From contig NZ_JABEQD010000003.1 of NCBI RefSeq assembly GCF_014174395.1, forward strand, positions 310,001-374,000: a stretch of 64,000 nucleotides of DNA, written 5' to 3'. This stretch comes from Gluconacetobacter aggeris (GTDB taxonomy: Bacteria > Pseudomonadota > Alphaproteobacteria > Acetobacterales > Acetobacteraceae). The position numbers and the translations under genes are program-made. This document shows, piece after piece, positions 23,668 to 53,399 of the stretch (positions within the stretch are counted from its first letter, which is position 1; every line of letters begins with the position of its first letter). Under the pieces are notes generated by a model, which had not been told where the DNA came from, did not search any database, and worked only from the letters and a program-made list of their open reading frames with translations.

Positions 23668-23683
23668 GGCGCCTTAACTCCGA

Positions 23684-24931: not shown

Positions 24932-24945
24932 GGTAATGTTCCGTC

Positions 24946-25233: not shown

Positions 25234-25251
25234 ATTGACGACGCTCCTGAT

Positions 25252-27919: not shown

Positions 27920-27921
27920 GG

Positions 27922-30011: not shown

Positions 30012-30035
30012 GCTGGCGGTCCTTCCTGACGATCC

Positions 30036-30524: not shown

Positions 30525-30760
30525 ACTCCAGCAAAGGCCGACTGATCGATCGGCGGTTGTGAACCGAAGACATTACGTTGCATACGATGGGGACAATTCC
30601 AACCGCAAGCTTTCACCATAATCCATACAATATATGGCACATATCGAGAGAAGCCGCTTTTTTTAACATACAATGCCATACACGATGGTATGCCCGCGCA
30701 AACACTCAAAAAGTTATACCCCTATGTAATTGAATTATTATAAAAAAATAGTTCTCCACC
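30525..30760 (-). promoter_or_regulatory. Nit1C promoter region with repeated CATAC/GTATG half-sites
   Basis: Upstream of the first Nit1C gene, CATAC occurs at 30581, 30624, 30667 and 30677, with GTATG at 30688. The first three are spaced exactly 43 bp apart, the next 10 bp further. Site 30623-30637 reads CCATACAATATATGG, itself a near palindrome. The same half-site recurs before cioA, serC, cyoA, hemA and mocR3. No convincing sigma-54 promoter was found; one candidate (ATGGTGAAAGCTTGC) has the wrong spacing by 1 bp. The rest of the 313-bp gap is AT-rich with no gene. Confidence 0.55.
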
Positions 30761-30837
30761 GGACCTGAATAATTCTTATTGTCTGCATGGCATCAGGCTA
30801 AAACCCGGTCTGAAGCGACGCATAGACCTCTGCCTGG

Positions 30838-31303
30838 TCAATGATACGGCGCGGTCGTCCCCAGAGGGACATGAGCCAGCGTCACGTTCAGATGCTTGTT
30901 AACGAAGTAGGTCGCGCACGCGTCAAAACAATTACCTTCAGGCATGAAGTTCTGATTTCGCGGCTTGGTTCTATATTCAACGCCCACGACCAGCCCGGGC
31001 ACGAAGGACGGAAGATAAGCAATAGATCCTTCGAACTGCGGATGGTAACTGTCGTTACAATTTCCGCCGAAACCAATGATGCCCCGTTGATTTCCCTTGG
31101 TAAGACGCATCGTCGCGTCAATGATGACATGAGCTTTCCCGAACAGCTTTGTGGTCGCGATATACACATCGCCACCATCAGCCGAGCGTGCGCCGATAGA
31201 GTGGATCACATGATTGTCGCTGTCAGGCTTGATACGTCGCACCAATCGCAACCTGCGGAAGTAAAATAAAATGCCGTTCCGATCCCGTTATTGCTGCAGC
31301 ATA
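30838..31303 (-). pseudogene. DUF3034 family protein, truncated and frameshifted
   Basis: The minus frame 30838-31251 has the C-terminal half of a DUF3034 outer-membrane-like protein (ATMRLTKGNQRGIIGFGG, YHPQFEGSIAYL, GVEYRTKP, FDACATYFVNKHLNVTLAHV). Just upstream, another frame continues the similarity (LLPQVAIGATY), so a frameshift lies near 31235. The N-terminal half is missing and an IS5-type element starts 20 bp further. The gene is non-functional; DUF3034 function is unknown. Confidence 0.6.
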
Positions 31304-31324
31304 CGCCAATAGTTGCTCAACTAG

Positions 31325-31955
31325 GGTCTGTTAGATCTTGATCCAATCTGAGGCGGCTGCGAGGTGAAGGATAGCGAGGAACGAGGTGACGGTCTTTTCG
31401 TATCGGGTTGCGACGGCGCGCCATTCCTTCAGACGGGCCCATAGGTTTTCCACCAGATGCCGGTTTCGATAAACCCATTGTGGACAGGCAACGGCAGCGT
31501 CCCGGCGCTTGGGCGGGATCGCTGGTCGCGCGCCCATGGCCCAGACATGGTCCCGGAAGGCATTGGAAGCATACCCCTTGTCACCGACGACCCATAATGG
31601 CTCGCGTGGCAGGCGGTCGAGCATGGCGGGTGCCAGCGGCAGTTCGTGCGCCTGACCGGGCGCCAGGTTGAAGGTGACGGCACGGCCACGTCCGTCAGCG
31701 ACTACGCAGACCTTGGTTCCATAGCCACCACGGGCCCAATTCCGAAGGAATGCTGCGCCATTTCGCGCCGTTCTGATGACGCCAGAACACCGCCGATATC
31801 GTCCGCCGCAGGTCTTTCGGCGGCGTCTTGCCCCGCGGGCGCACCGCTTCGATCAGTGGCTCCCAAACCGCCCACGCTTCGTCGGTGAAAATCTGTGTCG
31901 CATTGCTTTCAGTCATTCCTCATATATAGGAATAATCTACAAGATCTAACAGGCC
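31325..31955 (-). mobile_element. Internally deleted IS5-family insertion sequence
   Basis: Bounded by 16-bp inverted repeats GGTCTGTTAGATCTTG (31325-31340) and, inverted, GGCCTGTTAGATCTTG (31940-31955), with one mismatch. Minus-strand fragments code for the transposase N-terminus (31695-31916: FTDEAWAVWEPLIEAVRPRG...) and C-terminus (about 31331-31735: GYGTKVCVVADGRGRAVTF, VVGDKGYASNAF, NRHLVENLWARLKEWR). The join at SELGPWW skips the first catalytic aspartate region and shifts frame. At about 631 bp it is some 200 bp shorter than intact relatives, so it could move only in trans. Confidence 0.75.
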
Positions 31956-32258
31956 TCAATCGGATGTTCTTGCCATAGATAAAACGCCTGATTCGATAAA
32001 TGGTCAATACATGAGGCAATATGGAGCACCGGCACCAATCAACTTGTATCCTCTTCCGGCCAAACCGTCATTCCTCGCACAACAGAGAGGGGTTGCCGTC
32101 CTCTCCAAACGGCATCGCAATATGCCAACGTGATGGTTGTGAACAGAAACTGAAGAGAAAAGACGACACATGAAGGATACGATGATTGGTGTGGACAGGA
32201 GAAATCTTCAGGCCAGAAGACTCAATCGTCGCGCCCACCTTCGGGCTTTCCACCTCTG
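31956..32258. other. Non-coding gap between IS and GlxA-type regulator
   Basis: These 303 bp contain no recognisable gene on either strand. A short open frame on the minus strand (32068-32262) overlaps the end of the regulator gene and has no family resemblance. The missing N-terminal half of the DUF3034 gene was looked for here and not found. Confidence 0.5.
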
Positions 32259-33230
32259 TCACAACTCTTGTTCTTTCTCGCCGCCATGCGACCCGACACG
32301 AGAGAGACGCCGGAATCCTTGGGGCGTCTGACCATACTGGCGGATAAAGGCCTCGCGCAGGCGTCGGCGGTCGACCAAGCCCGTCTCCTGCGCGATCTCA
32401 TCGAAAGAAAGCCTTCCTTCATCAATCAAAAGCCGCGCGGCCTCGATCCGAAGACGCTCCACAACCTTCGCAGGGGATTGACCAGTTTCCGCGCTGAAGG
32501 CACGACTGAACTGGCGCGGACTCAAATTGACTACAGCCGCAAGCTCCTCAACCGAGAGAGGGTTTGCCAGGTTGCATCGGGCGAAGACAAGCGCCTTTTG
32601 AATCCGATCGGATTTTGGCGCCAGATCCAGCAGTTCGGAATGCTGGGACTGCCCGCCGGTCCTGCGATGACTCATCACCAGTCTGCGTGCGACAGTGCGC
32701 GAGAGTTCCAATCCGAGGTCCTTCTCTACAAGCGCCAGCGCCAGATCGAGCCCCGCTGTAAGACCCGCAGACGTCCATACCGGACCTTCATTGATGAAGA
32801 TCCGATCTTCCTCAACCTTCACCAGGGGATGATCGGCCCGCATGCGGCTAGCATAAAGCCAATGCGTCGTGGCGCGCCGTCCGTCGAGCGCACCGGTTTG
32901 CGCAAGATAAAATGCGCCAGTACACAAGCCAGCGACACGGCGCGCCCGTCGCATGTGATGCTGAAGCGTTGCAATCTGCTCCGTTGGCAGGCGCTGCGGA
33001 ACTGTCACGCCGCCGAGCAGAATCAACGTATCGACCGCTTCTAGCGCATCGACATGCCCGGTACCGATATCGAATCCCATCGAGGATGGCACATTGCCGC
33101 CCGTCAACGAAACCAGATGGAGCGTATAGTACGGGCTGCCAACCGCCATGTTGGCGATTTCGAAAGCTGTCTGTGCTGCGAGCCCCATGAACTGGACTCC
33201 CGGAAAAAGTAACATGGCGACGTCCGGCAT
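32259..33230 (-). CDS. GlxA-type AraC family transcriptional regulator
   Basis: A 323-residue regulator with an N-terminal DJ-1/PfpI-like domain (VAMLLFPGVQFMGLA at the start, GLCTGAFYLAQTGALDGRRATTHW in the middle with the nucleophile-position Cys). The C-terminal AraC domain has two helix-turn-helix motifs (SVEELAAVVNLSPRQFSRAFSAETGQSP and SFDEIAQETGLVDRRRLREAF). GlxA-type regulators respond to small amide or amine metabolites. It is divergent from the dehydrogenase/AhpD-like cluster at 33384-35541 and probably controls it. Confidence 0.92.
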   Translation of the reverse strand: MPDVAMLLFPGVQFMGLAAQTAFEIANMAVGSPYYTLHLVSLTGGNVPSSMGFDIGTGHVDALEAVDTLILLGGVTVPQRLPTEQIATLQHHMRRARRVAGLCTGAFYLAQTGALDGRRATTHWLYASRMRADHPLVKVEEDRIFINEGPVWTSAGLTAGLDLALALVEKDLGLELSRTVARRLVMSHRRTGGQSQHSELLDLAPKSDRIQKALVFARCNLANPLSVEELAAVVNLSPRQFSRAFSAETGQSPAKVVERLRIEAARLLIDEGRLSFDEIAQETGLVDRRRLREAFIRQYGQTPQGFRRLSRVGSHGGEKEQEL

Positions 33231-33277
33231 CGCTCTCTCCCTATCTGGCTCAGATCATGGCGCGAATACGTAGCATC

Positions 33278-33295
33278 TGCGTCATTTCAGACGCA
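33278..33295. promoter_or_regulatory. Candidate operator palindrome in the regulator/SDR intergenic region
   Basis: TGCGTC-N6-GACGCA is a perfect 6-bp inverted repeat midway between the divergent regulator gene and the first dehydrogenase gene. A related TGACGCA follows at about 33332. It is a candidate binding site for the GlxA-type regulator. Confidence 0.4.
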
Positions 33296-33383
33296 ACGGC
33301 GACGGCGTATGAATTCGGAGTCATGACGCAGCCGGCACCGCGGACGTCCATGACGGAAGCTGAATTTCAGGAAGGATATCCGC

Positions 33384-34178
33384 ATGACCAGCAAAGGAAC
33401 GGCCGTCGTGACGGGGGCGTCATCAGGTATCGGCGCCACATACGCGGACCGCCTTGCCCGCCGAGGCTACGATCTCATTGTCGTCGCCCGCAATCGGGCG
33501 CGCCTCGAAGCGTTGGCCAAGCGGCTGAGTGACACGACAGGCCGCGCGGTGAAGGTTCTGGTCGCCGACCTCGAGGACAAGGCAGATCTTGCACAGGTCG
33601 AAATGGTGCTGAAGACCGATGCCAGCATCACGATGCTGGTAAACAATGCCGGCTTCGGCACCTTTGCGCCTCTGTTGGAGAGCGACATTGAAAGAATGAT
33701 GTCGATGATCGACATCAACGTGACCGCGCTAACCCGTCTGACCTATGCCGCCATTCCGGCGATGGTGACGCGCGGGCACGGGGCACTGATCAATATTTCT
33801 TCGATCGTGAGTGTGTCGCCTGAAACTCTTAATGGTGTCTATGGCGGTACGAAGGCATTCGTTCATGCATTCAGCACCTCTCTGAACCACGAGTTGAAGG
33901 ACAAGGGTATCCGTGTCCAGGCAGTACTTCCCGGTGCCACGGCCACGGAATTCTGGGATGTGGGCGGTCTTGCGGTGGAACACCTTCCAGCCGAAATCGT
34001 CATGACCGCCGACGACATGGTGGACGCGGCATTGGCGGGGTTCGACCAGGGAGAAACGGTGACGATTCCGGCCCTGCCCGACATCGAAGAGTGGAACCGC
34101 TTCGAGGCAGCGCGCCGCGCCATGGCAACGCGTCTATCCGCCACCAAACCTGCAGTTCGCTACGGCGTGGCCCAATAA
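33384..34178 (+). CDS. Short-chain dehydrogenase/reductase (SDR)
   Basis: A 264-residue classical SDR. It has the cofactor motif TGASSGIG (about 10-17), LVNNAG, and the catalytic Ser in NISSIVSVSP with Tyr-x3-Lys as YGGTK. Arginine residues after the second strand (VVARNRARL) favour NADP. It is the first of three plus-strand genes opposite the GlxA-type regulator. The substrate is unknown. Confidence 0.92.
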   Translation: MTSKGTAVVTGASSGIGATYADRLARRGYDLIVVARNRARLEALAKRLSDTTGRAVKVLVADLEDKADLAQVEMVLKTDASITMLVNNAGFGTFAPLLESDIERMMSMIDINVTALTRLTYAAIPAMVTRGHGALINISSIVSVSPETLNGVYGGTKAFVHAFSTSLNHELKDKGIRVQAVLPGATATEFWDVGGLAVEHLPAEIVMTADDMVDAALAGFDQGETVTIPALPDIEEWNRFEAARRAMATRLSATKPAVRYGVAQ

Positions 34179-34208
34179 AGAGAGGGCGTCAGAGCCCGGA
34201 GAACCCTC

Positions 34209-34754
34209 ATGAACACCATTCTTCCGTTAACCGATGACGCAGTCGACGATCATGTCGCCACCATCTTCAAGACCGCCAAAGCCAACATGGGAAGAGTGCC
34301 CAATCTCTTCCGCGTCATGGCTCACGCACCTGCAGTGCTCGAGGTTTATACCCAGACACATGCCTCTCTCGGTCATGGTGTCCTACCGCGTGCCCTGAGG
34401 GAGCAAATTGCCATTGCCGTCGCGACCGCCAATCACTGCGACTACTGCCTTGCCGCGCACACGCTTGCTGGAAAGGCAGCTGGCCTGACAGCCGCGGATC
34501 TGACGGCAGCCCAGGACGGCATGGCATCAGACCCGAAATCTCGGGCCGTTCTCACGCTCGCGCGCCTCATCAACGCGACACATGGGCGCGCCCACCCGGA
34601 GGCCGTCGCATCCGCTCGGGCAGCCGGACTGAGCGATGCCGAGATCCTTGAAACGGTCGCCCACGTGTCGATCAGCGTGCTGACCAACAGCATCAACAAC
34701 ATCGTCGATACACCGCTCGACTTTCCCCCCGCCGTCCGCTCGGACGTCGGTTGA
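34209..34754 (+). CDS. AhpD/carboxymuconolactone-decarboxylase-like protein
   Basis: A 181-residue alkylhydroperoxidase-like protein. The redox motif is Cys77-x-x-Cys80 followed by His84 (CDYCLAAH), as in AhpD-like peroxidases. It lies 30 bp after one SDR gene and 28 bp before another, so the three form an operon. It may remove peroxide or aldehyde-type electrophiles; no closer function can be given. Confidence 0.9.
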   Translation: MNTILPLTDDAVDDHVATIFKTAKANMGRVPNLFRVMAHAPAVLEVYTQTHASLGHGVLPRALREQIAIAVATANHCDYCLAAHTLAGKAAGLTAADLTAAQDGMASDPKSRAVLTLARLINATHGRAHPEAVASARAAGLSDAEILETVAHVSISVLTNSINNIVDTPLDFPPAVRSDVG

Positions 34755-34782
34755 GTCACGGCTGAAACACAGGAGATTTACC

Positions 34783-35541
34783 ATGAATCTTACAGGCAAT
34801 ACGATCTTCATCACCGGCGGTGGGTCGGGTATCGGGCGAGGATTTGCCGAAGCGCTCCATAAGCTCGGTAACCAGGTCATCATCTCGGGGCGGCGCCAGG
34901 CGTTGCTCGACGTAGTTACGGCGGCCAATCCGGGAATGGCGTCGGTGACCCTCGATGTCGCCAATCCGGCGGACATCGCACGGGTCGCAACTACGCTCAT
35001 CCGCGACTATCCGTCCTTGAACGTCTTGTTCAACAATGCCGGAATCATGCCCTTCGACGACGCCGAACGCGCACTCGACCTTGAAACTGTGCAAAGTATC
35101 GTCGCTACCAACCTCCTCGGCCCGGTTCTGATGACCTCGGCGTTGATCGAGCATCTCAAAACTCAGCCGCGTGCAACGGTTCTTTATAACAGTTCGGTTC
35201 TGGCGTTCGTGCCGCTAGCGACGAATGCCGTTTACTCGGCGACCAAAGCGGCAATCCATTCCTATGCCCTGTCGCAAAGGTTCGTGCTGCGCAATAGCCA
35301 CGTCACAGTGCAGGAAATCGCTCCGCCGTGGGTCGATACTGATCTTATCAAGAAGAGCGGCGATCCCCGCGCCATGCCGCTCGACACCTTTATCGAGCAG
35401 GCGATGACGTTGCTCGCGACGGACGCACCCGAAATCGTGGTCGAGGCTATACGCTCGCTCCGAGATAATCCTGGGTCCGGAGAACATGCGCTGGTCACGG
35501 CGTTCAATCAATCAATCGTCGACGATCCGATCCCGGTGTAA
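34783..35541 (+). CDS. Short-chain dehydrogenase (DltE-like SDR)
   Basis: A 252-residue SDR with TGGGSGIGRG at the cofactor site, LFNNAGIMPF, and the catalytic YSATK preceded by NSSVLAF. The SGRRQ after the second strand suggests NADP. It resembles the DltE-like branch. It is the last intact gene of the operon; an aldehyde dehydrogenase relic follows. Confidence 0.9.
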   Translation: MNLTGNTIFITGGGSGIGRGFAEALHKLGNQVIISGRRQALLDVVTAANPGMASVTLDVANPADIARVATTLIRDYPSLNVLFNNAGIMPFDDAERALDLETVQSIVATNLLGPVLMTSALIEHLKTQPRATVLYNSSVLAFVPLATNAVYSATKAAIHSYALSQRFVLRNSHVTVQEIAPPWVDTDLIKKSGDPRAMPLDTFIEQAMTLLATDAPEIVVEAIRSLRDNPGSGEHALVTAFNQSIVDDPIPV

Positions 35542-35640
35542 GAGCAGAAAGTGCATGCTGACAGCGGTAAATATCAACATGTCCACGTACCCGCTGGACT
35601 GCGCCCATATCGGTTGCGGTTTCCCGAGGATGCCCAACTA

Positions 35641-36371
35641 ATTTGATCAAACAGCTCCGTCACGAACTCTTACATCTCTCTCCTCGACCAAATGATCCCG
35701 GGTGCCGTTGATGTTGACGGCACCCGTATCCGGTACCTCGTCGCCGGCAAGGAGGGATCCCCTGTTGACCGCATCGCGGAGATACTGACACGCGAGCGCG
35801 GTGGTCCGATCAATGACTGCCGCCTTGAGGTCGCCCGCGCGCGGGATGCGATTCATTATTTTGCGCGCCAGAGGCTTGAAGAGCGGGTGATCCGCCGGAA
35901 CAACCATGAACTGATTGTCGAACAGCGCTATGCACAAGGCGTCGTGGTCGCGATCACGCCATGGAATCGACCGATGACCCTCCTTTCATTCAAGCTCGCA
36001 CCGGCGCTGATCACAGGCAACACGGTCATCGCGAAACCTGCGCCATCTACGCCACTCACAACGCTGTTGCTTGGTGAGCTCGCGGCTGACATTTTTCCTC
36101 TGGGAGTATTTCAAACAATCATCAATGCTAACGACCTTGGTCCGTTGCTCACCAGCCATCCGGATGTCGCCCATGTCAGCTTTACCGGCTCGACCGCGAC
36201 TGCAAAGGCGATCATGTCGTCCGTGGCAATAGCCTTAAGCGTTTCACCCTTGAGCTTGGGGGAAACGACGCCGCAATTGTAATTGACGACGTCGAGTGGG
36301 TCGCCGACAAGATCTATGCCACCGCATTTATTAATGCAGGGCAATTGTACTACGCAACTAAGCGCGTATAG
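35641..36371 (+). pseudogene. Aldehyde dehydrogenase, decayed
   Basis: Fragments of an NAD(P) aldehyde dehydrogenase: LDQMIPGAVDVDG near the start, then PVDRIAEILTRERG, YAQGVVVAITPWNRP, HPDVAHVSFTGSTATAK. A frameshift at about 36226 leads to RFTLELGGNDAAIVIDDVEWVADKIY, after which GQLYYATKRV is followed by a stop. Tyrosine replaces the catalytic cysteine (normally GQxC) and the last ~200 residues are gone. Internal deletion also joins the N-terminal segments. Confidence 0.8.
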
Positions 36372-36661: not shown

Positions 36662-38068
36662 TCAGACGATATCGTCGAAGCCGGGCGAACGTTTATGGCG
36701 CAACAGGTCGGAGACGCCTCGCAGAGAGACAGCGAGACTTTCTCGGCTCGTTGCACTTCCAAGAGCAATACGCGCGCGCTGGGGCGGCTCCCCCTCAACG
36801 GTGAAGACATTACTGGGCACCAGAGCAAGCCCCTGCCTGCGAGCGTATGAAACGAAATCGACGCTCCCCCACCAGTCTGGAAGCCTGAGCCAGACATGCG
36901 GGCCGTCCGGGTGCATGCAATGGCCGTTCCCCAGGATATCCCGTGCAATTTTCTGCCGGGCCCGCAATTCCGTTTGAATCGCTGCCAGGATGCTTGCGGC
37001 AGAACCGTTTTGCATCCATCGGGCCACGAGACTCGTCATCAACCCCGAATTCGTGAGGGAAAGCGCCCGAATGGCCGAACTCATTCTATGGGCCATGTCC
37101 ACGCCCGGTACCACGAGAAAGGCCTGCCGGAGTCCGGGCGACAATACCTTGGCCAGAGTGGAAACATAGAAGACATGCGCCGGGTCCAGACGCGCCATTG
37201 CGGGCAGGCCGTCCCGCAACAATAACCCGTAGGGATCGTCCTCCAGGATCGGAATTTGATGCGCTCGCGCAATTGCCAGAATCGCCTCACGCCGTTCCGG
37301 AGACATGGTCGCCGTGGATGGATTTTGGATTGTCGGCATGCAGTAGATGAGCTGCGGTCGGTGACGACGGCAGGCCTGATCGAACTGATCCGGTACCATT
37401 CCTTCCAGATCGCTATCGATACCCTTGAGCATGAGATGAAACTGAGCCGCGGCTGAGCGAATACCAGGGTAGGTGAACCGATCGGTGATAATCGTATCAC
37501 CGGGAGTCGTCAGGGTGGAGACGACGGCAGCAATGGCTGCCTGGGCACCTGGAACAACAAGAACCTCATCCTCATTGCGTTGCCCGAGCAAGGGTTCCAT
37601 CCAACGCGCCGCCAGACGGCGCTCCTCGGTGCTGCCGCCGGTAACGCGGTATGAAAGCAGGCCACTGAGTTCCTGCTTGCGGAGGAGATACGTCATATCC
37701 GCCTGGATCAATTGACCAAGAGCTGGTTCTTCGGGAATCGGCGGCAAATTCATCGTGAGATCGACGATGGCGCGACCAGTGTGACGCCAGCGTGTTTCTG
37801 TCGCCCCTACTTTCACGAATGTCCCGCGGCCGACGGTCGCCTCGATCAAGCCGCGTCGACGGGCCTCACTGAAGGCGCGCGTGACTGTCGTGAGGTCCGT
37901 ACCCAGAGCAGCGGCCAACTGGCGTTGGGGCGGAAGCCGATCCCCCTCATGCAGGAGACCTCTGCGTATGGAATCAGCCAAAGCATCGATAATCGAGAGA
38001 TAAATAGGCCCGGAGCCATGCTCGATATGGTGTTTCCAGTTGGATATCAGTTCAGCCGTGGACATCAA
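36662..38068 (-). CDS. MocR-type PLP-dependent transcriptional regulator 1
   Basis: A 468-residue GntR-MocR regulator. Residues 20-90 form a winged helix-turn-helix (LPPQRQLAAALGTDLTTVTRAFSEARRRGLIEATVGRGTF). The remainder is a fold type I aminotransferase domain with IYCMPTIQNPSTATM, DDPYGLLL and the PLP lysine in STLAKVLSPGLR. It is divergent from cioAB, with a 349-bp shared promoter region. Relatives include MpaR of Pseudomonas, encoded in a cyanide-responsive cluster. It is most similar to regulator 3 in layout ([19 protein letters not shown]). Confidence 0.92.
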   Translation of the reverse strand: MMSTAELISNWKHHIEHGSGPIYLSIIDALADSIRRGLLHEGDRLPPQRQLAAALGTDLTTVTRAFSEARRRGLIEATVGRGTFVKVGATETRWRHTGRAIVDLTMNLPPIPEEPALGQLIQADMTYLLRKQELSGLLSYRVTGGSTEERRLAARWMEPLLGQRNEDEVLVVPGAQAAIAAVVSTLTTPGDTIITDRFTYPGIRSAAAQFHLMLKGIDSDLEGMVPDQFDQACRRHRPQLIYCMPTIQNPSTATMSPERREAILAIARAHQIPILEDDPYGLLLRDGLPAMARLDPAHVFYVSTLAKVLSPGLRQAFLVVPGVDMAHRMSSAIRALSLTNSGLMTSLVARWMQNGSAASILAAIQTELRARQKIARDILGNGHCMHPDGPHVWLRLPDWWGSVDFVSYARRQGLALVPSNVFTVEGEPPQRARIALGSATSRESLAVSLRGVSDLLRHKRSPGFDDIV

Positions 38069-38417
38069 ATTCCCAAGTCAATCGCACACAAGTTGTCCGC
38101 CTACAATTCACGAATGTCACCATACAATCAAGGCCTAATTCACCATCCTTTGCCAGCACATACTGGGACGCTCCACGGGCGGATTAATATCAAAATTACG
38201 TTTTTATCCAATATGTTAATGAACATAGAAATCCGAACAGACTGGAAGAAGCTCGTCCGCGTGATGAGGCACGAAACGACGAGTCAACACGAATTCTTGA
38301 CCAAGACAATAGGAAGACATAATAAGGAGAATATGCGCGTATTGTATGAAATATGACCGGTTCCAATCTGCGCGGAGCGACAGAGAGACGACCGATCCGA
38401 CGAGAGGAGTCATTGCC
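38069..38417. promoter_or_regulatory. Divergent mocR1/cioA regulatory region
   Basis: This intergenic stretch carries CATAC at 38121 and 38159 and GTATG at 38344. A variant CTACAAT at 38101 lies 20 bp from the CATACAAT at 38121, two helical turns. The cioA Shine-Dalgarno AGGAG is at 38405-38409. The half-site matches those before Nit1C, serC, cyoA, hemA and mocR3. No coding feature is seen. Confidence 0.5.
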
Positions 38418-39815: not shown

Positions 39816-39840
39816 TCATCAGTTCCAAGGAACCTGAAAA

Positions 39841-42966: not shown

Positions 42967-42998
42967 TTCCGGACACCCCCACGATCCGAACGGAATCA

Positions 42999-44357: not shown

Positions 44358-44510
44358 GTCTTTCCTCACCTCGCATCGCATCAATCCACCCCCGATGGGA
44401 AAATGCATCGACCGATTCGATGCCAGCAAAGGACAACAGAACAGGAAAGGCGACCAAAACACCGGAGCCGTCTCGGTGTCAGACATCCAATTCGGCTCCG
44501 GCTGGGATGT

Positions 44511-44867: not shown

Positions 44868-45475
44868 TACAGGACTCCCCCCAGATAAACGATCGAGAAC
44901 ACGCAGACCCACACCAGGTCCAAGAAGTGCCAGAACAGACTCAGGCAGGCCAGACGACGCTGGATGGTTGCATCCAGGCCGAAATGCAGCACCTGATGAA
45001 TGATCACCGCAAGCCAGAGCAACCCGAGCGTAACGTGGATGCCATGCGTTCCGACGAGACCGAAATAGGCGGACAAGAAGGCGCTGCGATCCGGCCCGGC
45101 GTTTTCAGCGATCAGATGGACGAATTCATGGATCTCCATCCAGATAAAGGAAGCACCAAGAAGAAATGTTACAAACAGCCAGAAAATGACGCTCGTCTTC
45201 TTCTCGTTACTCAGGCCCGAGATCGCCAGCCCGAACGTGAAGCTGCTGAGCAGCAATAACAGCGTCTCCAACCCGACATAATTCAGGTCGAAAAGCGAAC
45301 CGGCTGTCGGCCCCCCGGCTGTCGCATGAGAAAGAACCCCGAAGGTCGCGAACAGGGTGGCGAAGATCAGGCAGTCCGTCATGAGATAGATCCAGAAGCC
45401 GGTAATGGCCATGGCTCCCTTCTCATGCCCATGGTCGGCGTCATGATGGGACGCCTGAACAGTGCTGTGGAGCAT
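44867..45475 (-). CDS. cyoC: Cytochrome o ubiquinol oxidase subunit III (CyoC)
   Basis: A 202-residue subunit III with five predicted helices. Family motifs are GFWIYLMTDCLIFATLFATF, SFIWMEIHEFVHL and YFGLVGTHGIHVTLGLLWL. The ATG at 45475 overlaps the cyoB stop by one base, which decides against upstream in-frame starts within cyoB. Confidence 0.95.
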   Translation of the reverse strand: MLHSTVQASHHDADHGHEKGAMAITGFWIYLMTDCLIFATLFATFGVLSHATAGGPTAGSLFDLNYVGLETLLLLLSSFTFGLAISGLSNEKKTSVIFWLFVTFLLGASFIWMEIHEFVHLIAENAGPDRSAFLSAYFGLVGTHGIHVTLGLLWLAVIIHQVLHFGLDATIQRRLACLSLFWHFLDLVWVCVFSIVYLGGVL

Positions 45476-47457
45476 CAGATCTGCCCTCCCGCTACGACCG
45501 AGGCATGGCGGGATTCTATTTCTGCCACCTCCTCGGCCGGGACGTAATAATCCACATCCGTATTGTAGGTTCGCACGATGAAACTCACGATCGCACCGAC
45601 AAAACCGATAATTGCCGGAATCCACATGTGCCAGACGAGCGAGAAGCACAGGACCAGAGCGAAGACCGAAATAACAAAGCCGGTCGCCGTGTTCCGCGGC
45701 ATGTGGATGTCTTCGTAATGCACATTCTCAGGTGCCGTTACGCCGTTGATCTTGTCGTCCCAATGCTGCTCCAGCGACGTGATGGTCGGAATCCGAGCGA
45801 AATTATAGAAGGGCACGGGTGACGGCAGGGACCATTCCAGGCTGCGACCGCCCCACGGATCTCCCGTCACGTCGGCATTCGCCTTCCGATCACGAATACT
45901 GACCGCGATCTGGATCAGGATCGCTACGATGCCAACCGCGATGAGACACGCCCCGATCAACGCGACGGTCAGGTAGGGCTGCCAATCCGGCTGATTGAAA
46001 TGATTCAAACGGCGCGTCATGCCCTTGAAACCAAGAACATACATCGGCGTCCAGGCCAGCCAATAACCGGAAAACCAGAACCAGAAGGCAATCTTTCCCC
46101 ATTTCTCGTTGAGAGCAAAGCCGAACACCTTCGGAAACCAGAAGGTCATACCGGCGAGCACACCGAAAACAGTGCCGCCGATGATGACGTTATGAAAATG
46201 CGCGACCAGGAAGAGGCTGTTATGAACAAGGAAGTCGACGCCCGGGATCGCGAGCATGACGCCGGTCATACCGCCGAATGCAAAGGTCGCCATGAAGCCG
46301 ATGGACCAGAGCATGGACGAATGATAGCGGACCCGGCCCCGATACATGGTGAACAACCAGTTGAACAGCTTCACACCGGTCGGGATCGAAATGAGCGTGG
46401 TCATGATGCCGAAGAACGCGTTGACGTTGGCACCGGAGCCCATGGTGAAGAAATGATGCAGCCAGACGAAGAATGACATCACACCGATGGCTGAGGTCGC
46501 ATACACCATGGATTTGTAGCCAAACAGAGGCTTGCCCGAAAATGTCGCAACGACTTCGGAAAAGACGCCAAATGCCGGCAGAATCAGGACGTAGACCTCA
46601 GGATGCCCCCATACCCAGATGAGATTGATGTACATCATCGCATTTCCACCAAGCTCGTTGGTGAAGAAATGCATTCCCAGATAGCGGTCCGCCGTCAGAA
46701 GCGCCAGCGTCGCCGTCAGGACGGGGAAAATCGCAACGATCAGAATGTTCGTGATCAAGGCCGTCCATGTGAACACCGGCATCTTCATGAGCGTCATGCC
46801 CGGAGCACGCATCTTCAGGATCGTCATCAGGAAATTGATCCCTGATATCGTGGTTCCCAGACCGGAGAGCTGAAGGGCCCAGATATAATAATCGACACCG
46901 ACTGTCGGGCTGTAGCCGAGTTCGGAAAGCGGCGGATAGGCCACCCAGCCCACAGCTGCGAAATCGCCGACGAACAGCGACATCATCACAAGCGTGCCGC
47001 CCATCACCGTCAGCCAGAAACTCAATGAGTTCAGGAACGGGTAGGCCACATCCCGTGCGCCAATCTGCAAGGGTACCACAAAATTCATGAGACCGAGAAT
47101 GAACGGGGTCGCCATGAAGAAGATCATGATCGTACCATGCGCGGTAAAGATCTGATCGTAATGGTGGGGTGGCAGATACCCCGGCGATCCGGCAGAGGCC
47201 AGGGATTGCTGAAGCCGCATCATGATGGCATCCGCAAATCCGCGCAGCAGCATAATGAGTGCAAAGATGATGTACATCACACCGATCTTCTTGTGATCGA
47301 CGGATGTTATCCATTCACTCCACAGATATTTCCATTTTCCATAATACGAAACCAGGCCCAGGATCGCACAGCCTAAGATCGCAACAGCCGCGAATGTCCA
47401 TACGATAATGGGTTGCTCGAGCGGTATCGCATCGAGCGTGAGCTTCCCGAACATCAT
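45475..47457 (-). CDS. cyoB: Cytochrome o ubiquinol oxidase subunit I (CyoB)
   Basis: A 660-residue haem-copper oxidase subunit I, matching the usual CyoB length. Haem and copper ligands are in [25 protein letters not shown] (the His-Tyr crosslink site), FVWLHHFFT and [11 protein letters not shown]. The enzyme pumps protons while oxidising ubiquinol. Two adjacent ATG codons overlap the cyoA stop; the first (47457) is used. The bo3 oxidase is cyanide-sensitive, unlike CioAB, so two branches with opposite sensitivity are encoded side by side. Confidence 0.97.
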
Positions 47458-48365
47458 TGATTCTCCATCACTGCGGCATGGACGTCGCATCGGGTTACAT
47501 CGCCGACACGCCGCAGGGAATTCTGCATCCGGCAGTCGTACTGTGTAGTAATGTCCCCAAACAGGTGTGGCGCGACATGGCCGTAGAGCGCTTCGGGGTT
47601 GTCTTCGCTATCTTTCCGCAAACCCAGATAGGCATCGCCATCCAGGGTGGCCGAAGATGCATGGGCCGTCTGCAGCCAGGCGGCGAATTGATCATCCGTC
47701 AGGACATGCGTCGGAAACTGCATTCCGGAGAAGCCGGGACCACTGAACGCAGTAGAACGACCCATATAGGTACCCGGCACTGTGCCCATCAGATGAAGCT
47801 GCGTTTCCATCCCCGCCATGGCGTAAACCTGGCTACCGAGCTGTGGGATGAAGAAGGAATTCATCATCGAGTCGGACGTCAGATGGAAATTGATCGGCCG
47901 GTCTACTGGAATACTCAGGGTATTAACCGTCGCGACCCCGTATTCCGGATAGATGAAAAGCCATTTCCAGTTCAGCGCCACCACGTCCACCTCGACTGCC
48001 GGCCGGCCGGCAACCAGCGGCTTGTAGGGGTCGAGTTCATGGGTGGTGCGCCAGATCGTCCAACCAAGGAACGAGATAACCACGATCGGGATCGACCACA
48101 CGACAACTTCGACCCCGGTCGAATGGGCCCATGTCGGTGCATACGTCGCATTTCTGTTGCTGGCCCGATATCGCCAGGCAAAAAACATGGAAAGTCCGAC
48201 CACCGGGATGACCACGCAAAGCATGATCCCCATACTAAGCAGGATCAGCGATTTTTCATGTTCACCAATCGTGCCCTTTGGTGAAAGCAATTCCAAATTG
48301 CTACATCCGCCTAGGACCAAGGTGAATATACTTGATCCTAGGTATCGATATTTCTTGTATGACAT
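47454..48365 (-). CDS. cyoA: Cytochrome o ubiquinol oxidase subunit II (CyoA)
   Basis: A 303-residue lipoprotein subunit. The lipobox is LVLGGCSN near residue 21; two helices follow, then the cupredoxin domain ([38 protein letters not shown]). The copper ligands of cytochrome c oxidases are absent, as expected for a quinol oxidase. It is the first gene of cyoABCD, and its promoter region is shared with the divergent hemA gene. Confidence 0.96.
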
Positions 48366-49019
48366 CGTATCCTCTATTCGGAATTCCGGCAGCGCCCATG
48401 TCGCGCCCTGCCGGCACCCGAACTCCTTCGTGACAGCGATCCACTCCGCTCGCTGGCCAGACGTGCTTCCTCATGCCGATCGCGATGCGAGGACAGCGCG
48501 TGGCCGCAAAGCCGTCCACGGCGGCCCGATCACAGAGCGACAGGCTTCTCCGCCCCGTTCGATCAGGCGGATATCCGCAAAACTCCCATTCACCTTACAA
48601 TATCGTCAGCGAGCCAGTTCGCGATGGGTGCGCATCGGCGATTGCCCATACACAAGGCCTATATAACAAAGATAACACACATACAATAATGCAGATATGA
48701 GGGTGCAGAATCCCCTTTATGCACATACACGCGCACCGGCATTCGTGTATCTCTCTGTGTCTTTGGCTGCTGGCAGCAAGCCTCGGTCATCTCCTGACCG
48801 AGGGAATAACGATGCCCTCACACGCATAAAAGATATTTTTTATAATAAAATCAATATACTAAATAAAAAAATAACGCCATAACCCACCATCCCGGGACTT
48901 GGGCGCAACCTCAGAGACACATCGGCGGAACTCGTGAAAGGCTTGCATTGTATGCATCAAAAGCATACACACATGAAGGTGGGAACCATACTCTCGAAAT
49001 CTCAAGGCAGGTGACTATC
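48366..49019. promoter_or_regulatory. Long cyoA/hemA divergent regulatory region
   Basis: About 650 bp without a gene. On the cyo side CATAC half-sites stand at 48647, 48680 (33 bp apart) and 48724. In the middle CCTCGGTCA-N5-TGACCGAGG (48781-48803) is a perfect 9-bp hairpin with no T-run, so not an ordinary terminator. A strongly AT-rich block follows (48828-48872) with a TATACT element at about 48854. On the hemA side the palindrome GTATGC-N7-GCATAC occupies 48950-48968. The size and layout suggest a complex promoter or a small untranslated RNA. Confidence 0.5.
48950..48968. promoter_or_regulatory. GTATGC-N7-GCATAC palindrome before hemA
   Basis: A perfect 6-bp inverted repeat with a 7-bp spacer (ATCAAAA), about 52 bp before the hemA start. 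An identical palindrome with the same spacer length lies at 53368-53386 before mocR3. It is the best candidate operator for one of the MocR regulators. Confidence 0.6.
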
Positions 49020-50240
49020 GTGGATTACGAGGCGACATTTCAGACCATCCTTTCGACCATGCGGCAGGATGGACGGTACCGGAACTTCATCACACTGGAG
49101 CGGATCGTCGGCGCATTCCCGACGGCGCGTTGGCATCGTCCCGATGGCACGGTCCAGAATGTCACCATCTGGTGCAGCAATGATTATCTCGGCATCGGCC
49201 AGCATCCCGTCATTGTGGGGGAGATGCATGAGGCGCTGGATCGCATGGGGGCAGGTGCAGGCGGCACACGAAACATTTCCGGCACGACACGCCCTCATGT
49301 CGAACTGGAGGCAGAACTCGCCGACCTGCATGGCAAGGATGCCGCGCTGGTCTTCACCTCCGGCTGGATTTCAAACCTCGCGACACTCGGCACCCTGGGC
49401 CAGGTTCTGCCCAACTGCGCAATATTTTCGGACGCGCTGAACCATAACTCCATGATCGAGGGCATTCGAAGGTCGGGGGCAGAGCGGTTTATCTTCAAAC
49501 ACAATGATGCCGCACATCTCGATGCTCTTATGAGCAGCATCGATCCCGATCGACCGAAGATTGTTGCCTTCGAAAGCGTCTACAGTATGGACGGCGACAT
49601 CGCGCCAATTGCAGAATTATGTGATGTCGCGGAAAAATATGGAGCTATTACCTATCTGGATGAAGTACATGCCGTTGGGTTATATGGTCCGCATGGCGGA
49701 GGCATCGCCGAACGCGAAGGTCTAGCCGACCGGATCACGATCATTGAAGGCACTCTTGCCAAAGCGTTCGGGGTCATGGGCGGGTATATTGCCGGCTCCA
49801 CAGCGCTGATCGACGTTATCCGCAGTCTGGGCAGCAGCTTCATCTTCACGACGTCGTTATGCCCTCACATCGCCGCGGGCGCGCTGGCTGCAATTCGGCA
49901 TGTGCGCGCGACACCCACCCTGCGCCATGAGTTGATGGCAAATGCCGAGCGACTCAAGGCGATGTTTGTTAACGCCGGTCTCCCTGTCCTCGACTCGCCA
50001 AGCCACATTCTACCCCTGATGGTACGGGACGCTCATCTGTGCCGACGCCTGAGCGAGACGCTTCTGCATGAGCACGGAATGTATGTCCAGCCAATCAACT
50101 ACCCCACGGTTCCAGCAGGCCAGGAAAGGCTGCGCATCACACCGACGCCCTTCCACACGGAAGAGCACATGCACAACCTGATTGCAGCGCTCCTCGTTGC
50201 AGGGCGCCAACTGGGATGGCCTCTGTCCTCTGCATCCTGA
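49020..50240 (+). CDS. hemA: 5-aminolevulinate synthase
   Basis: A 406-residue PLP enzyme condensing glycine and succinyl-CoA, the first step of haem synthesis in alphaproteobacteria. The GTG at 49020 is chosen because it gives the family N-terminus ([10 protein letters not shown]) and puts the PLP lysine at 248 in GTLAKAFG, as in Rhodobacter. Other motifs are [31 protein letters not shown] and [19 protein letters not shown] 9 bp upstream is also possible. Placed between cyo and the sirohaem reductase gene, it probably meets the haem demand of newly made oxidases. It may be a second copy. Confidence 0.95.
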
Positions 50241-50264
50241 TCGCCTTGCTACAGGAGATACCTC

Positions 50265-52277
50265 ATGACCTTTCACATCGTCACGGCTAACCGCCTCTGC
50301 GACGGTTCCGTGGTCTGGTTGGACGCTTCGGGAAACTGGGGAGAAAATATCGGTGCCGCCGCGTCGATGGATGAGGCCGATGCAGCGAGCACAGTTGTCA
50401 CCCTTCAGCGCCGTGACAGGAATATCGTCGTTGATGTTCGCAGCATTCCGGCGGAAGCTGGTGAGAATCACCCGCGCCCGCTGAGCCAGCGCGAGCAGTT
50501 GCGGGCAAGCGGACCGAGCGTTCGCCCCGACCTCCGCCATCTACGCTCCGGCACGTGTGAGGAGGTCGGTATCCGTCCCGTTCCTCCATCGACATTTTCC
50601 ACTTCACCTCATGCCGGAACATATCGCTACGATGAATTCGATCGTCAGTTTCTGCGCGATCGTGCCGCACAATTCGGCGACCAGGTCCAGCGGCGCATCG
50701 CCGGTGAATTGACTGAGGAGGAATTCAAGCCGCTGCGACTGATGAATGGGCTCTATCTCCAGCTTCACGGCTACATGTTGCGCGTAGCCCTGCCCTACGG
50801 TGTTCTCAGCGCTGTGCAGATGCGCCAACTCGCTTATATCGCCCGTCATTTCGATCGCGGCTACGGACATTTCACGACACGACAGAACATCCAGTTCAAT
50901 TGGCCTCGCCTGGTCGACGTCCCGGACATTCTTGCCATTCTCGCAGAAGCCGACCTGCACGCGATTCAAACGAGCGGGAACTGCGTACGTAACGTCACAA
51001 CTGACCATTTTGCCGGTGCGGCAGCGGAGGAGATCGTCGACCCGCGCCTCTATGCCGAGATCTTGCGTCAATGGTCGACTGACCACCCGGAATTCACCTA
51101 TCTGCCCCGCAAATTCAAGATCGCCATCACAGGCAGTCCGCAAGACCGGGCAGCGGTGCGTTTGCACGATATTGGCATCCTAGCCCGCCGAGACGCAGAG
51201 GGTAATCCCGGATTTCAGATCTTTGCCGGCGGCGGCCTCGGCCGCACGCCGGTTGTCGGCACGAAGGTCAAGGACTGGCTACCGGTTCGAGACCTGCTGC
51301 GTTACGTCGAGGCCGTGCTACGTGTCTACAATGCACTCGGCCGCCGGGACAATATCTACAAGGCTCGGATAAAGATTCTGCTCCGTGACATGCATCCCGA
51401 ACAATTCATCGAGATGATCGAGAGTGAATTCACCAGCATGCCCACGGATTACTGCTTACTGTCTCCCGATATTGTCGCAGCCGTCGCTGCGCGGTTCGTC
51501 GCCCCACCTTTTCTGGACTTCCCCCCCGACACGCGGATTGATAGGACGACCGGGAATGCGGAACCGAGCTTCAAAGCCTGGGTCCGCACCAATACACACC
51601 CACACCGACGCTCCGGCTATGTCAGCACGGTGATTTCGCTAAAGCCGCCCGGCGGCATTCCGGGCGATGCAAGCGCCGATGAAATGGAAACGATTGCCGA
51701 ACTCGCCGACCGATTTTCCTTTGGCGAAATCCGCATTTCCCACGAACAGAATGTCATTCTGCCACATGTGCGCCAAAACGCGTTACATGCGCTATGGCAG
51801 GCCCTGGTCCGTGGCGGGTTGGCCACAGGCAATATCGGCCTCGCGACCAATATCATCGCGTGCCCCGGCATGGATTATTGCAGCCTTGCGACGGCGCGAT
51901 CGATCCCGATCGCGCAGAGAATTACCGAACGCTTTGCTCGACCGGACCGGCTGGCCGAAATTGGCCCCCTGGACCTGAATATCTCCGGATGCATCAATGC
52001 ATGCAGCCATCATCACATTGGGCATATCGGGTTACTCGGCGTCGATCGCAACGGCGAGGAGGTGTACCAGATCACACTGGGTGGCTCAGGCGAGGAGAAT
52101 GCCTCGATCGGCACGATTATAGGGCCCGCGGTGAAAGCGGACGATGTGCCCGATGCCATCGAAGCCATTATCGATGCCTATATTGTGCGACGCGCCGACG
52201 ACGAACGGTTCATCGAAACTTATCGACGCGTCGGCATGGAACCATTCAAGGAGGCCGTTTATGGCGCTCGTCGATAA
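50265..52277 (+). CDS. DUF2849 - sirohaem nitrite/sulfite reductase fusion
   Basis: A 670-residue protein. Residues 1-90 match DUF2849 (HIVTANRLCDGSVVWLDASGNW), normally a separate small protein encoded next to cysI in alphaproteobacteria. From about 115 it is a ferredoxin-type sirohaem reductase: GHFTTRQNIQFNW, TSGNCVRNVTTD, LPRKFKIAITG. The [4Fe-4S]-sirohaem cysteines are Cys533, Cys539, Cys576 and Cys580 (CPGMDYC and GCINACSHHH). It reduces sulfite or nitrite by six electrons. PA4130, a similar reductase in Pseudomonas aeruginosa, sits in a cyanide-inducible cluster with a MocR regulator. It is 24 bp after hemA and overlaps DUF934 by 17 bp. Confidence 0.9.
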   Translation: MTFHIVTANRLCDGSVVWLDASGNWGENIGAAASMDEADAASTVVTLQRRDRNIVVDVRSIPAEAGENHPRPLSQREQLRASGPSVRPDLRHLRSGTCEEVGIRPVPPSTFSTSPHAGTYRYDEFDRQFLRDRAAQFGDQVQRRIAGELTEEEFKPLRLMNGLYLQLHGYMLRVALPYGVLSAVQMRQLAYIARHFDRGYGHFTTRQNIQFNWPRLVDVPDILAILAEADLHAIQTSGNCVRNVTTDHFAGAAAEEIVDPRLYAEILRQWSTDHPEFTYLPRKFKIAITGSPQDRAAVRLHDIGILARRDAEGNPGFQIFAGGGLGRTPVVGTKVKDWLPVRDLLRYVEAVLRVYNALGRRDNIYKARIKILLRDMHPEQFIEMIESEFTSMPTDYCLLSPDIVAAVAARFVAPPFLDFPPDTRIDRTTGNAEPSFKAWVRTNTHPHRRSGYVSTVISLKPPGGIPGDASADEMETIAELADRFSFGEIRISHEQNVILPHVRQNALHALWQALVRGGLATGNIGLATNIIACPGMDYCSLATARSIPIAQRITERFARPDRLAEIGPLDLNISGCINACSHHHIGHIGLLGVDRNGEEVYQITLGGSGEENASIGTIIGPAVKADDVPDAIEAIIDAYIVRRADDERFIETYRRVGMEPFKEAVYGARR

Positions 52278-52797
52278 ACACGGAGACGCGATCGAGGATC
52301 GGTGGCACTACCCATCGCCTGCAGACAGCAGCACACAGGGGCATCCCTATTTCCATATGGTGGAGCCGTTTCATATTATTCCGCTGCAGCAACTCGTTGC
52401 GATCGGTCCTCGATTGCAAGTCTTTCCTCCTGCCGGAACACTCGTGCCCAACGATGCCCCCCTCGCGATGCTGCGGCCCTTCCTCGACCGACTCGACTTG
52501 ATCGCCGTGGAATTTCCGAAATTCCGCGACGGCCGTGGCTTTACCCTGGCTCGCACTCTCCGTGAGCGACATGTTTTCAAAGGCGATATCCGTGCAATCG
52601 GGCATATTCTGCCCGATCAATTCAGGGCTCTCATCCTGTGCGGATTTTCAACGGTCGTCACGCCGGATGACCACCCACCTGAACAATGGAGTCGCACTTT
52701 ACGTTCGCTCTCCTCTCCGGACAGCAGCACCCCGCTACTGAACAGACTGATCGGGAGGCGGGCCCTGTCCCGTGAATATGTCGCGGAAAGTGAATGA
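52261..52797 (+). CDS. DUF934 family protein
   Basis: A 178-residue protein with the DUF934 core (VEFPKFRDGRGFTLARTLRER, GDIRAIGHILPDQF). DUF934 genes accompany assimilatory sulfite reductase genes; the function is unknown, perhaps electron delivery or complex assembly. The ATG at 52261 has a strong AGGAGG 7 bp upstream and overlaps the reductase gene by 17 bp. The usual partner cysH is not present. Confidence 0.9.
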   Translation: MALVDKHGDAIEDRWHYPSPADSSTQGHPYFHMVEPFHIIPLQQLVAIGPRLQVFPPAGTLVPNDAPLAMLRPFLDRLDLIAVEFPKFRDGRGFTLARTLRERHVFKGDIRAIGHILPDQFRALILCGFSTVVTPDDHPPEQWSRTLRSLSSPDSSTPLLNRLIGRRALSREYVAESE

Positions 52798-52798
52798 C

Positions 52799-53179
52799 AT
52801 GAATTTGATCGATCCAGAGGGGGCACAACGCCTTGCCCAGTTACTCAGACTGCTCGGAATCCCGCGCCGACTCCAGATTCTTAGCCTCTTACTCGAAGGA
52901 TCTTTCTCCGTCGGCGAGATCAAGGCCCGAACCGGAATCGGCCAACCCGTACTCAGTCAGCAACTCGGTGACTTACGTCGCGGCGGCATTATCATGCCAC
53001 GGCGCCAGTCCCAGATGATCTACTATTCCATCGTAAATGAAAGCGTAGCCAGAAGCGTCCGAACCATGCTCTCATTACTTGAGCCGGGCCGGGCGTTCGC
53101 ATCGACGGTCGATATCGCATCGCCGGGAGTGCCTCGAAGAATGAGCGCTCACTCGGCTCATGGTAATCTGCCGTCCTGA
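52799..53179 (+). CDS. ArsR-type winged helix regulator without cysteines
   Basis: A 126-residue ArsR/SmtB-like regulator (RLLGIPRRLQILSLLLEGSFSVGEI, then TGIGQPVLSQQLGDLRRGGIIMPRRQSQMIYYSI). No cysteine occurs anywhere, so it cannot sense metals or persulfide through thiols as SqrR/BigR do. The ATG at 52799 follows the DUF934 stop by 1 bp; another in-frame ATG at 52778 would overlap. It is the last gene of the hemA-reductase-DUF934 operon and may control it. Confidence 0.85.
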   Translation: MNLIDPEGAQRLAQLLRLLGIPRRLQILSLLLEGSFSVGEIKARTGIGQPVLSQQLGDLRRGGIIMPRRQSQMIYYSIVNESVARSVRTMLSLLEPGRAFASTVDIASPGVPRRMSAHSAHGNLPS

Positions 53180-53194
53180 GAGTATACGGTGTGA

Positions 53195-53317
53195 TCAAGC
53201 GGTTTTGGCATCCACAGGCGGTTGTCCCGCAACAGTGCGTTGGGCGAGAACGATCAGTTTTCGCATGACGGCGGTAATGGCGACACGCAGGCGAACCAGA
53301 TATCCAGACAGGTCCAT
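53195..53317 (-). pseudogene. IS110-family transposase C-terminal scrap
   Basis: The minus frame ends with VRLRVAITAVMRKLIVLAQR, followed by about 15 residues and a stop, resembling the last helix of IS110/IS1111 transposases (VALTAcMRKLL). Only 40 codons remain. It occupies the gap between the ArsR-type gene and the mocR3 promoter. The call rests on a single short motif. Confidence 0.45.
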
Positions 53318-53349
53318 AGAGCGCCCGGTTCCCTCTTCTCAATTGAGGC

Positions 53350-53386
53350 CATACATAATATAGTTTTGTATGCATATATCGCATAC
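53350..53386. promoter_or_regulatory. mocR3 operator: GTATGC-N7-GCATAC palindrome plus flanking CATAC
   Basis: The palindrome spans 53368-53386 with spacer ATATATC. A further CATAC lies at 53350, 32 bp from the one at 53382. It ends 13 bp before the mocR3 start codon, so bound protein would block transcription or translation initiation: autoregulation is likely. It matches the hemA site base for base outside the spacer. Confidence 0.6.
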
Positions 53387-53399
53387 GGGACAAAATAAA

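Follow-up and report, generated by a model that had tools for sequence, protein, structure and literature searches.

Two clusters of Pseudomonas are the closest described counterparts of the system presented here. According to the cited passages, P. pseudoalcaligenes CECT5344 has a mocR gene next to a cluster which comprises cysI, cioA and serC, further aminotransferase genes and the nit4 nitrilase gene and whose proteins are induced by a cyanide residue (PMC8567248, PMC11049912, PMC5333837); its expression is constitutive in a MocR mutant (cited as unpublished data in PMC8567248). In P. aeruginosa the MocR-type regulator MpaR, encoded beside ccoN4 and nirA (PA4129–4134), is described in the cited passages as cyanide-dependent, autoregulated and in need of its residues at the pyridoxal 5'-phosphate (PLP) site (PMC10790758, PMC12688703), and Smiley et al. 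suggest that its ligand is an adduct of PLP and cyanide (PMC10790758). The present analysis concerns 64,000 nucleotides of Gluconacetobacter aggeris, hereafter the window (positions 310,001–374,000 of contig NZ_JABEQD010000003.1; Acetobacteraceae, genome of 4.32 Mb in 61 contigs), which encodes three MocR-type regulators and has copies of the box CATACA clustered in five intergenic regions. With a probability of roughly 0.74, we conclude that MocR1 and MocR3, acting through a CATACA operator, control a regulon for cyanide assimilation and tolerance which takes in the nitrilase-containing Nit1C cluster, cioAB, a second serC, hemA-cysI and cyo.

An earlier note on this DNA had placed 18 CATAC or GTATG sites in the five regions and read them as one shared operator of the type GCATAC. 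All 18 coordinates are exact, as are the two palindromes GTATGC-N7-GCATAC (48950–48968 and 53368–53386), which have no further exact copy in the genome, and the identical 33-bp spacing of two direct repeats (41696/41729 and 48647/48680). With gene limits set by hand from lists of open reading frames (ORFs), the five regions hold 19 CATAC in 1,676 bp (11.3/kb), compared with 4 in the 6,206 bp of other intergenic window DNA (0.64/kb) and 62 in coding DNA (1.10/kb); the half-site is some 18 and 10 times denser, respectively, than these backgrounds. The box itself is real, but its better core is CATACA, often in the form CCATACAAT. This ranks first among hexamers enriched in the five regions (14 versus 1.2 expected), CATACAA ranking first among heptamers (7 versus 0.3); there is no CATACA in the other intergenic DNA and there are 10 in coding DNA, and all six copies of CATACAAT in the window fall inside the five regions. 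The regions are poorer in G+C than the window (48.6% versus 61.7%), and one might suspect a chance or compositional product of AT-rich promoter DNA. We regard this as negligible, for none of 2000 dinucleotide-preserving shuffles of these regions reaches the count (CATAC mean 4.0, maximum 12; CATACA mean 1.1, maximum 6) and other genomes carry the same boxes at fixed spacing.

Pattern and profile searches covered the whole genome. Direct pairs of the form CATACA-N14..44-CATACA occur at four places, none of them outside the Nit1C, serC and cyo regions (2 places for the reversed control), and inverted pairs of the form TGTATG-N1..31-CATACA at five (reversed control, 0), one of which lies in the window, before hemA. 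The other four were set aside: three are inside genes according to our gene calls, and one (C1:75803; positions 1501–1536 of its extracted locus) stands directly before a gene labelled from its sequence as a HipB-like helix-turn-helix (HTH) gene and is probably an unrelated operator. Two one-mismatch palindromes were likewise put aside; they look like chance, the 21 window proteins searched having no match there. A promoter scan of the window gave 7 sites versus 9.2 in shuffles and was not used as evidence; one of these matches (53336–53364) overlaps the mocR3 operator.

The arrangement of the boxes becomes clearer from other genera, where the orthologous MocR3-type operator has three boxes, CATAC -19- GTATG -14- CATAC, with the consensus CCATACATGnTA...TGTATGT...CCATACA. 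The commonest distances in MocR3-type upstream regions are 33 bp between direct boxes (18 cases), 19 bp for CATAC..GTATG (18 cases), and 14 bp (24 cases) and 16 bp (25 cases) for GTATG..CATAC. The window's mocR3 shows the full set, at distances of 18 and 14 bp; its hemA has the last two, 14 bp apart, and serC and cyo have the outer two at 33 bp. Since the geometry of the orthologs contains both spacings, the 33-bp repeats and the palindromes are, as judged from sequence, parts of one putative three-box operator. The Nit1C boxes are 10 and 43 bp apart, and 10 and 45 bp apart in three genomes of the same genus (L046–L048); the inverted box ATTGTATG (38341–38348) lies about 75 bp ahead of the probable cioA start. 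Start codons are inferred ones throughout. The ORFs listed from 53370 (mocR3) and 48948 (hemA) probably begin at 53400 and 49020, so that both palindromes would probably lie in leaders. A repeated box at fixed spacing thus precedes a mocR gene and its neighbours, the mark of a candidate MocR operator. A sequence-only profile derived from 18 operators outside this genome has a single match in it at E <= 10, the mocR3 operator (E 0.005). Run on the window with filters off it gives 12 matches, 10 of them in the five regions and most of them weak; as the genome-level match is confined to mocR3, the profile alone is no proof for the other four regions.

Conservation was assessed at 80 named loci with MocR3 relatives (46–64% identity; some are metagenome bins). 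Boxes were counted in 250 bp upstream plus 20 bp, dropping any target whose upstream DNA was shorter than 200 bp and any control whose upstream region overlapped that of a target; control genes, and these only, came from a crude caller based on ORF length and third-position G+C. At least two CATACA precede 73 of the 80 MocR3-type genes versus 6 of 781 control genes, and at least three precede 64 of 80 versus 1 of 781. The first of these contrasts is kept both at MocR3 identities of at least 58% (27/33) and below that value (46/47), and the three-box geometry with at most one mismatch is found in 21 of 82 MocR3-type upstream regions versus 4 of 801 controls. The hemA genes at these loci also have two or more boxes (11/17). 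Within 250 bp no such pair was seen before nitrilase (0/24), cioA (0/23) or cysI (0/2), nor upstream of the first Nit1C gene (0/2) or the mocR1-type gene (0/1) of MocR3 loci. For GTATG-N9-CATAC the range was 350 bp upstream and three plasmid loci were added. It occurs 39 times in 1,599,183 bp, 34 copies being near genes matched to window proteins, and precedes mocR3 (25/83), hemA (6/19), serC (3/8) and cyoA (2/6) versus 1 of 766 controls. Boxes are also kept before mocR1 and Nit1C in relatives among the Acetobacteraceae. The motif is therefore conserved in orthologous upstream regions, and this together with the density contrast supports the earlier note in its proposal of one shared operator, predicted from sequence to be read by MocR proteins.

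Two further occurrences may be recorded. Plasmid pKB14400_3 of Kozakia baliensis has a MocR3 ortholog (63%) at a locus where the other searched window proteins have no match within 20 kb, and the same contig carries the perfect palindrome GTATGC-N7-GCATAC. Four loci (L065–L068) have direct CATACA boxes before mocR1-like genes, several of them 21 bp apart, with no Nit1C neighbour in 20 kb.

MocR1 and MocR3 possess above-cut-off matches to PF00392, the N-terminal GntR winged HTH, and to PF00155, the fold-type-I aminotransferase domain, with an STLAK/ATLSK motif whose lysine we take to be the PLP lysine. Against the PDB (E <= 1e-10) MocR3 matched 16 sequences, mostly named aminotransferases. The best NCBIfam model for all three MocRs is EhuR (NF052286, EhuR/EnuR), at 392, 194.5 and 404 bits for MocR1, MocR2 and MocR3, each below the cut-off of 480 bits. 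MocR1 and MocR3 are 39% identical and have in common a nearly identical recognition helix, DLTTVTRAFxEARRRG. Recognition helix and box type covary among 119 MocR rows (the window not counted). Where the helix reads VTRA, at least two CATACA lie upstream in 95 of 109 cases; for ITRA, VSRA and VSRG the counts are 2/2, 1/1 and 1/2. None of the five VARG/AARG rows has two or more CATACA, and four of them have at least two CAGTCA. These five are distant TTVARG/TTAARG MocRs with CAGTCA-type boxes, four of them beside Nit1C, and a shift of DNA specificity is possible.

The earlier note counted three MocR regulators among the regions, of which MocR1 and MocR3 fit the box. MocR2 has a different helix and no PF00392 match, yet the corresponding stretch does align with MocR models; at E <= 1e-45 it has six other matches, at 30–36% identity, in 385 genomes of the class, and looks like an orphan. 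Having no matching helix and only distant relatives in the sample, MocR2 was dropped as a candidate third reader and is probably not a controller of the predicted regulon.

The window also encodes an ArsR/SmtB-family regulator (52772–53179) and an AraC-type one (32259–33230), and either could in principle own the boxes. This is very unlikely: box type tracks the MocR helix, and the boxes are still present at MocR3 loci in which tblastn (E <= 1e-20, 40% coverage) found arsR at 0 of 80 and araC at 1 of 80, although a short ArsR homolog could escape this limit. A more serious alternative, compatible with cyanide as the signal, is that of two insulated look-alike circuits without cross-binding, MocR1 serving Nit1C, mocR1 and cioA, and MocR3 serving mocR3, hemA, serC and cyo. 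The two proteins fall into separate, well-supported clades of the tree, MocR1-clade members mostly neighbouring Nit1C, and are far from identical; the flanks differ too, MocR1-type boxes being often CCATACAAT and MocR3-type first boxes CCATACATG. Nevertheless the recognition helices are nearly identical and CATACAAT boxes are present in the cyo and hemA regions as well, and we would sooner bet against insulation than for it.

The coordinates of operators and genes are collected in Table 1.

Table 1. Operators and genes of the G. aggeris island, in window positions
Feature	Position	Strand	Remarks
Nit1C operator region	30581..30692		CATAC 30581, 30624, 30667, 30677 (+); GTATG 30688
mocR1/cioA divergent region	38120..38348		CCATACAAT 38120; ACATAC 38158; inverted ATTGTATG 38341-38348
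serC operator	41695..41733		two direct CATAC boxes, 33 bp apart (41696/41729)
cyoA/hemA divergent region	48646..48729		direct CATACA 48647, 48680 (33 bp), 48724 (44 bp)
hemA operator	48949..48969		TGTATGC-N7-GCATACA, box 2 and box 3
mocR3 three-box operator	53349..53386	+	CATAC 53350, GTATG 53368, CATAC 53382
Nit1C cluster	21895..30524	-	first gene 30036-30524; nitrilase 29028-30011; radical-SAM-like 27922-29031; further genes to 21895
Transposase-like ORFs, araC-type and SDR-type genes	30838..36282		between Nit1C and mocR1; sequence labels
MocR1	36662..38068	-	GntR HTH and aminotransferase domain (Pfam); lysine motif STLAK
cioAB and small third ORF	38346..40985	+	bd-type quinol oxidase; CydB above cut-off
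serC, second phosphoserine aminotransferase	41737..42966 (probable start 41803)	+	TIGR01365 and NF002841 above cut-off
MocR2	42999..44486	-	divergent MocR lacking the helix of MocR1 and MocR3
cyoABCD, second bo-type quinol oxidase	44511..48365	-	cyoA by Pfam (COX2/COX_ARM above cut-off); cyoB via cyoB-annotated plasmid matches
hemA, second 5-aminolevulinate synthase	48948..50240 (probable start 49020)	+	TIGR01821 above cut-off
Siroheme-type sulfite/nitrite reductase (DUF2849 and NIR_SIR), DUF934 gene, ArsR/SmtB-family regulator	50265..53179	+	NIR_SIR, DUF2849 and DUF934 above cut-off
MocR3	53370..54782 (probable start 53400)	+	clade with cioAB/hemA neighbours

The first Nit1C gene belongs to the MSMEG_0572/Sll0783 family (TIGR04044 above cut-off) and the nitrilase carries the CN_hydrolase Pfam domain, also above cut-off; the genes qualify as a Nit1C cluster, and the four genes searched stand in the same order in relatives. 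The labels of the remaining Nit1C genes are taken from the sequence with no family call, and those of cyoC and cyoD from sequence and place. CydA-type models match CioA below cut-off only, which makes "cio" rather than "cyd" a mere label. Four of the genes have a second copy in the genome: serC (contig C11, 56% identical), hemA (C4, 52%), cyoB (C3:43316, 65%) and the cysI reductase gene (C2, 61%). The ArsR/SmtB-family gene follows the siroheme reductase genes and matches the BigR model below cut-off. Elsewhere in the window a large set of ORFs (563–20065) resembles, by sequence labels, an uptake-hydrogenase cluster with its maturation genes.

The first Nit1C gene was found in 64 of 299 genomes of the order, at 67 places, and a mocR gene lies within 3 kb of it at 65 of these (63 of the 64 genomes). 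The exceptions are our own genome, where 6.7 kb separate the two genes, and the second of two places in another genome, a partial one. Some of these neighbouring MocRs are distant (41–42%) and not MocR1 orthologs. Transposase-like ORFs, again so labelled from sequence, flank and interrupt the island (30838–36282 and 55168–58476). The 11 other genomes of the genus listed have no match at the level of a MocR3 ortholog, the best being about 41% identical; in three of them (L046–L048) cioAB adjoins mocR1. The block from serC to mocR3 has a G+C content of 56.2% versus 60.6% for Nit1C, and on these two grounds, both read from sequence, it looks acquired. Among plasmid records 53 matched MocR3 at E <= 1e-100, six of them at 60–80% identity. 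When 18.2 kb of the island was searched against plasmids at near identity, nine records matched, in oxidase-gene stretches only.

The genes behind the boxes had been described in the earlier note as of otherwise unrelated function. This does not hold: cioAB, hemA, serC, cysI, cyo and nitrilase genes recur around MocR3 relatives, Nit1C stands beside MocR1-type genes, and the set resembles the cyanide-response clusters of Pseudomonas. Neighbours at the 80 MocR3 loci are cioA, cioB and a nitrilase homolog (23 each), hemA (17), serC and cyoB (7 each) and cysI (4).

What we observe are the boxes with their enrichment, conservation, spacing and neighbouring genes, and the covariation of helix and box. 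We infer DNA binding, reading of the box by both MocRs, cyanide as the inducer and a sign of control, in the following scheme. The CATACA boxes would be the operator of a regulon of MocR type, that is, of PLP-binding regulators of the GntR family, and MocR1 and MocR3 may both read the same box with nearly the same helix. Within the three-box operator, two boxes facing the same side of the DNA helix would be bound by a MocR dimer, be it the direct pair at 32–33 bp, the inverted pair at 14 bp, or both. The signal would be cyanide, sensed as a PLP adduct in the aminotransferase-like domain by analogy with the proposal for MpaR. The Nit1C nitrilase would supply nitrile or cyanide breakdown and CioAB a putative cyanide-insensitive oxidase, and the spare copies would replace enzymes hit by cyanide, namely the PLP enzymes SerC and 5-aminolevulinate synthase (ALAS), the siroheme reductase and the quinol oxidase. 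Autorepression of mocR3, lifted by the signal, is suggested by the end of its operator some 13 bp before the probable start codon. The sign of control is a guess by analogy, based on this place and on the CECT5344 mutant, MpaR being an activator.

The same operator and regulators might answer to something other than cyanide, for example to sulfide, to nitric oxide, to nitriles or amines, or to a lack of PLP. The gene set would then stand in more generally for haem and PLP enzymes that have been poisoned. The enzymes concerned depend on haem, siroheme or PLP and are vulnerable to several poisons. In Chromobacterium, to go by the title of PMC11837568, a cytochrome bd repressed by a MarR-family protein protects against nitric oxide, sulfide and cyanide. 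Furthermore, the cited passages link many MocR regulons to PLP metabolism or amino compounds (PMC5320631, PMC8739950). We nonetheless think a different inducer unlikely, as a nitrilase and a bd-type oxidase are joined in one regulon and the gene set is like those of two clusters reported as cyanide-induced.

Several observations weigh against a cyanide regulon under MocR1 and MocR3. The counts are not independent, since the genomes under comparison are relatives and MocR3 itself was the criterion for choosing the MocR3 loci. Few genomes have a MocR3-like protein (9 of 398 in the phylum at E <= 1e-105, our own and eight at 41–48% identity), and the first Nit1C gene is found at 3 of the 80 MocR3 loci only. 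Genome-wide the profile finds the mocR3 operator only, four of the five TGTATG-N1..31-CATACA places are outside the window, and the palindrome with up to one mismatch occurs four times versus six in the reversed control, whence only the exact palindrome and its place carry signal. Two or more CATACA are infrequent before serC (1/7) and cyoA (2/6) of MocR3 loci, and in the window the cyo boxes are 282–359 bp ahead of cyoA. The cioA genes of relatives lack CATACA within 250 bp (0/23), and at MocR3 loci GTATG-N9-CATAC was not found upstream of cioA (0/26), cysI (0/2), nitrilase (0/24) or Nit1C (0/2). Absence of boxes before cioA and nitrilase would follow if these genes were in putative operons behind mocR3 or hemA; at many MocR3 loci both lie close behind mocR3 in the same direction, a gene order which suggests such operons. 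Lastly, the distant MocR-Nit1C pairs are without CATACA pairs, nit1C of CECT5344 adjoins nitA, a gene for a sigma-54-type regulator (cited passage of PMC11049912), and the MpaR motif is given as ATCTGAT, not CATACA (cited passage of PMC10790758).

A wider account can be offered tentatively, at a little under even odds. In it one CATACA code joins Nit1C assimilation and CioAB/spare-enzyme tolerance in a single PLP-cyanide-sensing regulon of Acetobacteraceae and other Alphaproteobacteria, partly plasmid-borne. A MocR1-Nit1C unit that was resident and a MocR3 block that was acquired would have been wired together through an operator they already had in common, and this wiring would have outlived the insertion that split mocR1 from Nit1C. 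What the analysis yields at present is a concrete operator candidate for the MocR regulators of cyanide-type clusters in Alphaproteobacteria, a candidate rule (helix TTVTRA with CATACA, TTVARG with CAGTCA, the second part from five rows), and the prediction that acetic acid bacteria and their relatives place Nit1C under a PLP-binding regulator.

The earlier note considered the regulon undescribed in this combination. The CATACA operator and the inclusion of Nit1C do appear new; MocR control of a cio cluster, on the other hand, has already been reported in Pseudomonas. The open-access literature searched names no CATACA operator for cio or Nit1C clusters, and novelty of the motif is provisional, since the supplementary tables of predicted MocR motifs of Suvorova and Rodionov (2016) lay outside this search and may hold it. 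The cited part of PMC13021748 has nothing on a MocR operator, and in PMC5320631 MocR regulons include cytochrome oxidases, "cio" having 0 occurrences in the main text.

Compared with MocR operators in general, as given in the cited passages of PMC5320631, the window operator has the alternating order of a known class, three boxes of alternating direction (33 regulogs, 85 regulons, 11%), and differs in the sequence of its box. In the commonest class (32%) two direct boxes are followed by an inverted one, the proposed GabR operator has an inverted box between two direct repeats, and spacing is by whole helical turns (GabR, TauR, PdxR and predicted regulons). The predicted EnuR operator, ATTGT-N6-ACAAT, has an ATTGT flank like ATTGTATGG; EnuR/EhuR differs in being a matter of ectoine genes and a two-box inverted repeat (cited passages of PMC8739950). 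MpaR differs in that it is an activator whose cluster has an orphan cbb3-type subunit instead of CioAB or Cyo, and Nit1C, SerC and ALAS are not named for that cluster in the cited passages (PMC10790758, PMC12688703). If our conclusion is true, the sensing of cyanide through a PLP adduct, as proposed for MpaR, becomes testable in a second system. For the CECT5344 cluster the cited passages name no operator, hemA or cyo; in gene content this cluster and the window are alike, both having mocR together with cio, serC and cysI genes in one cluster.

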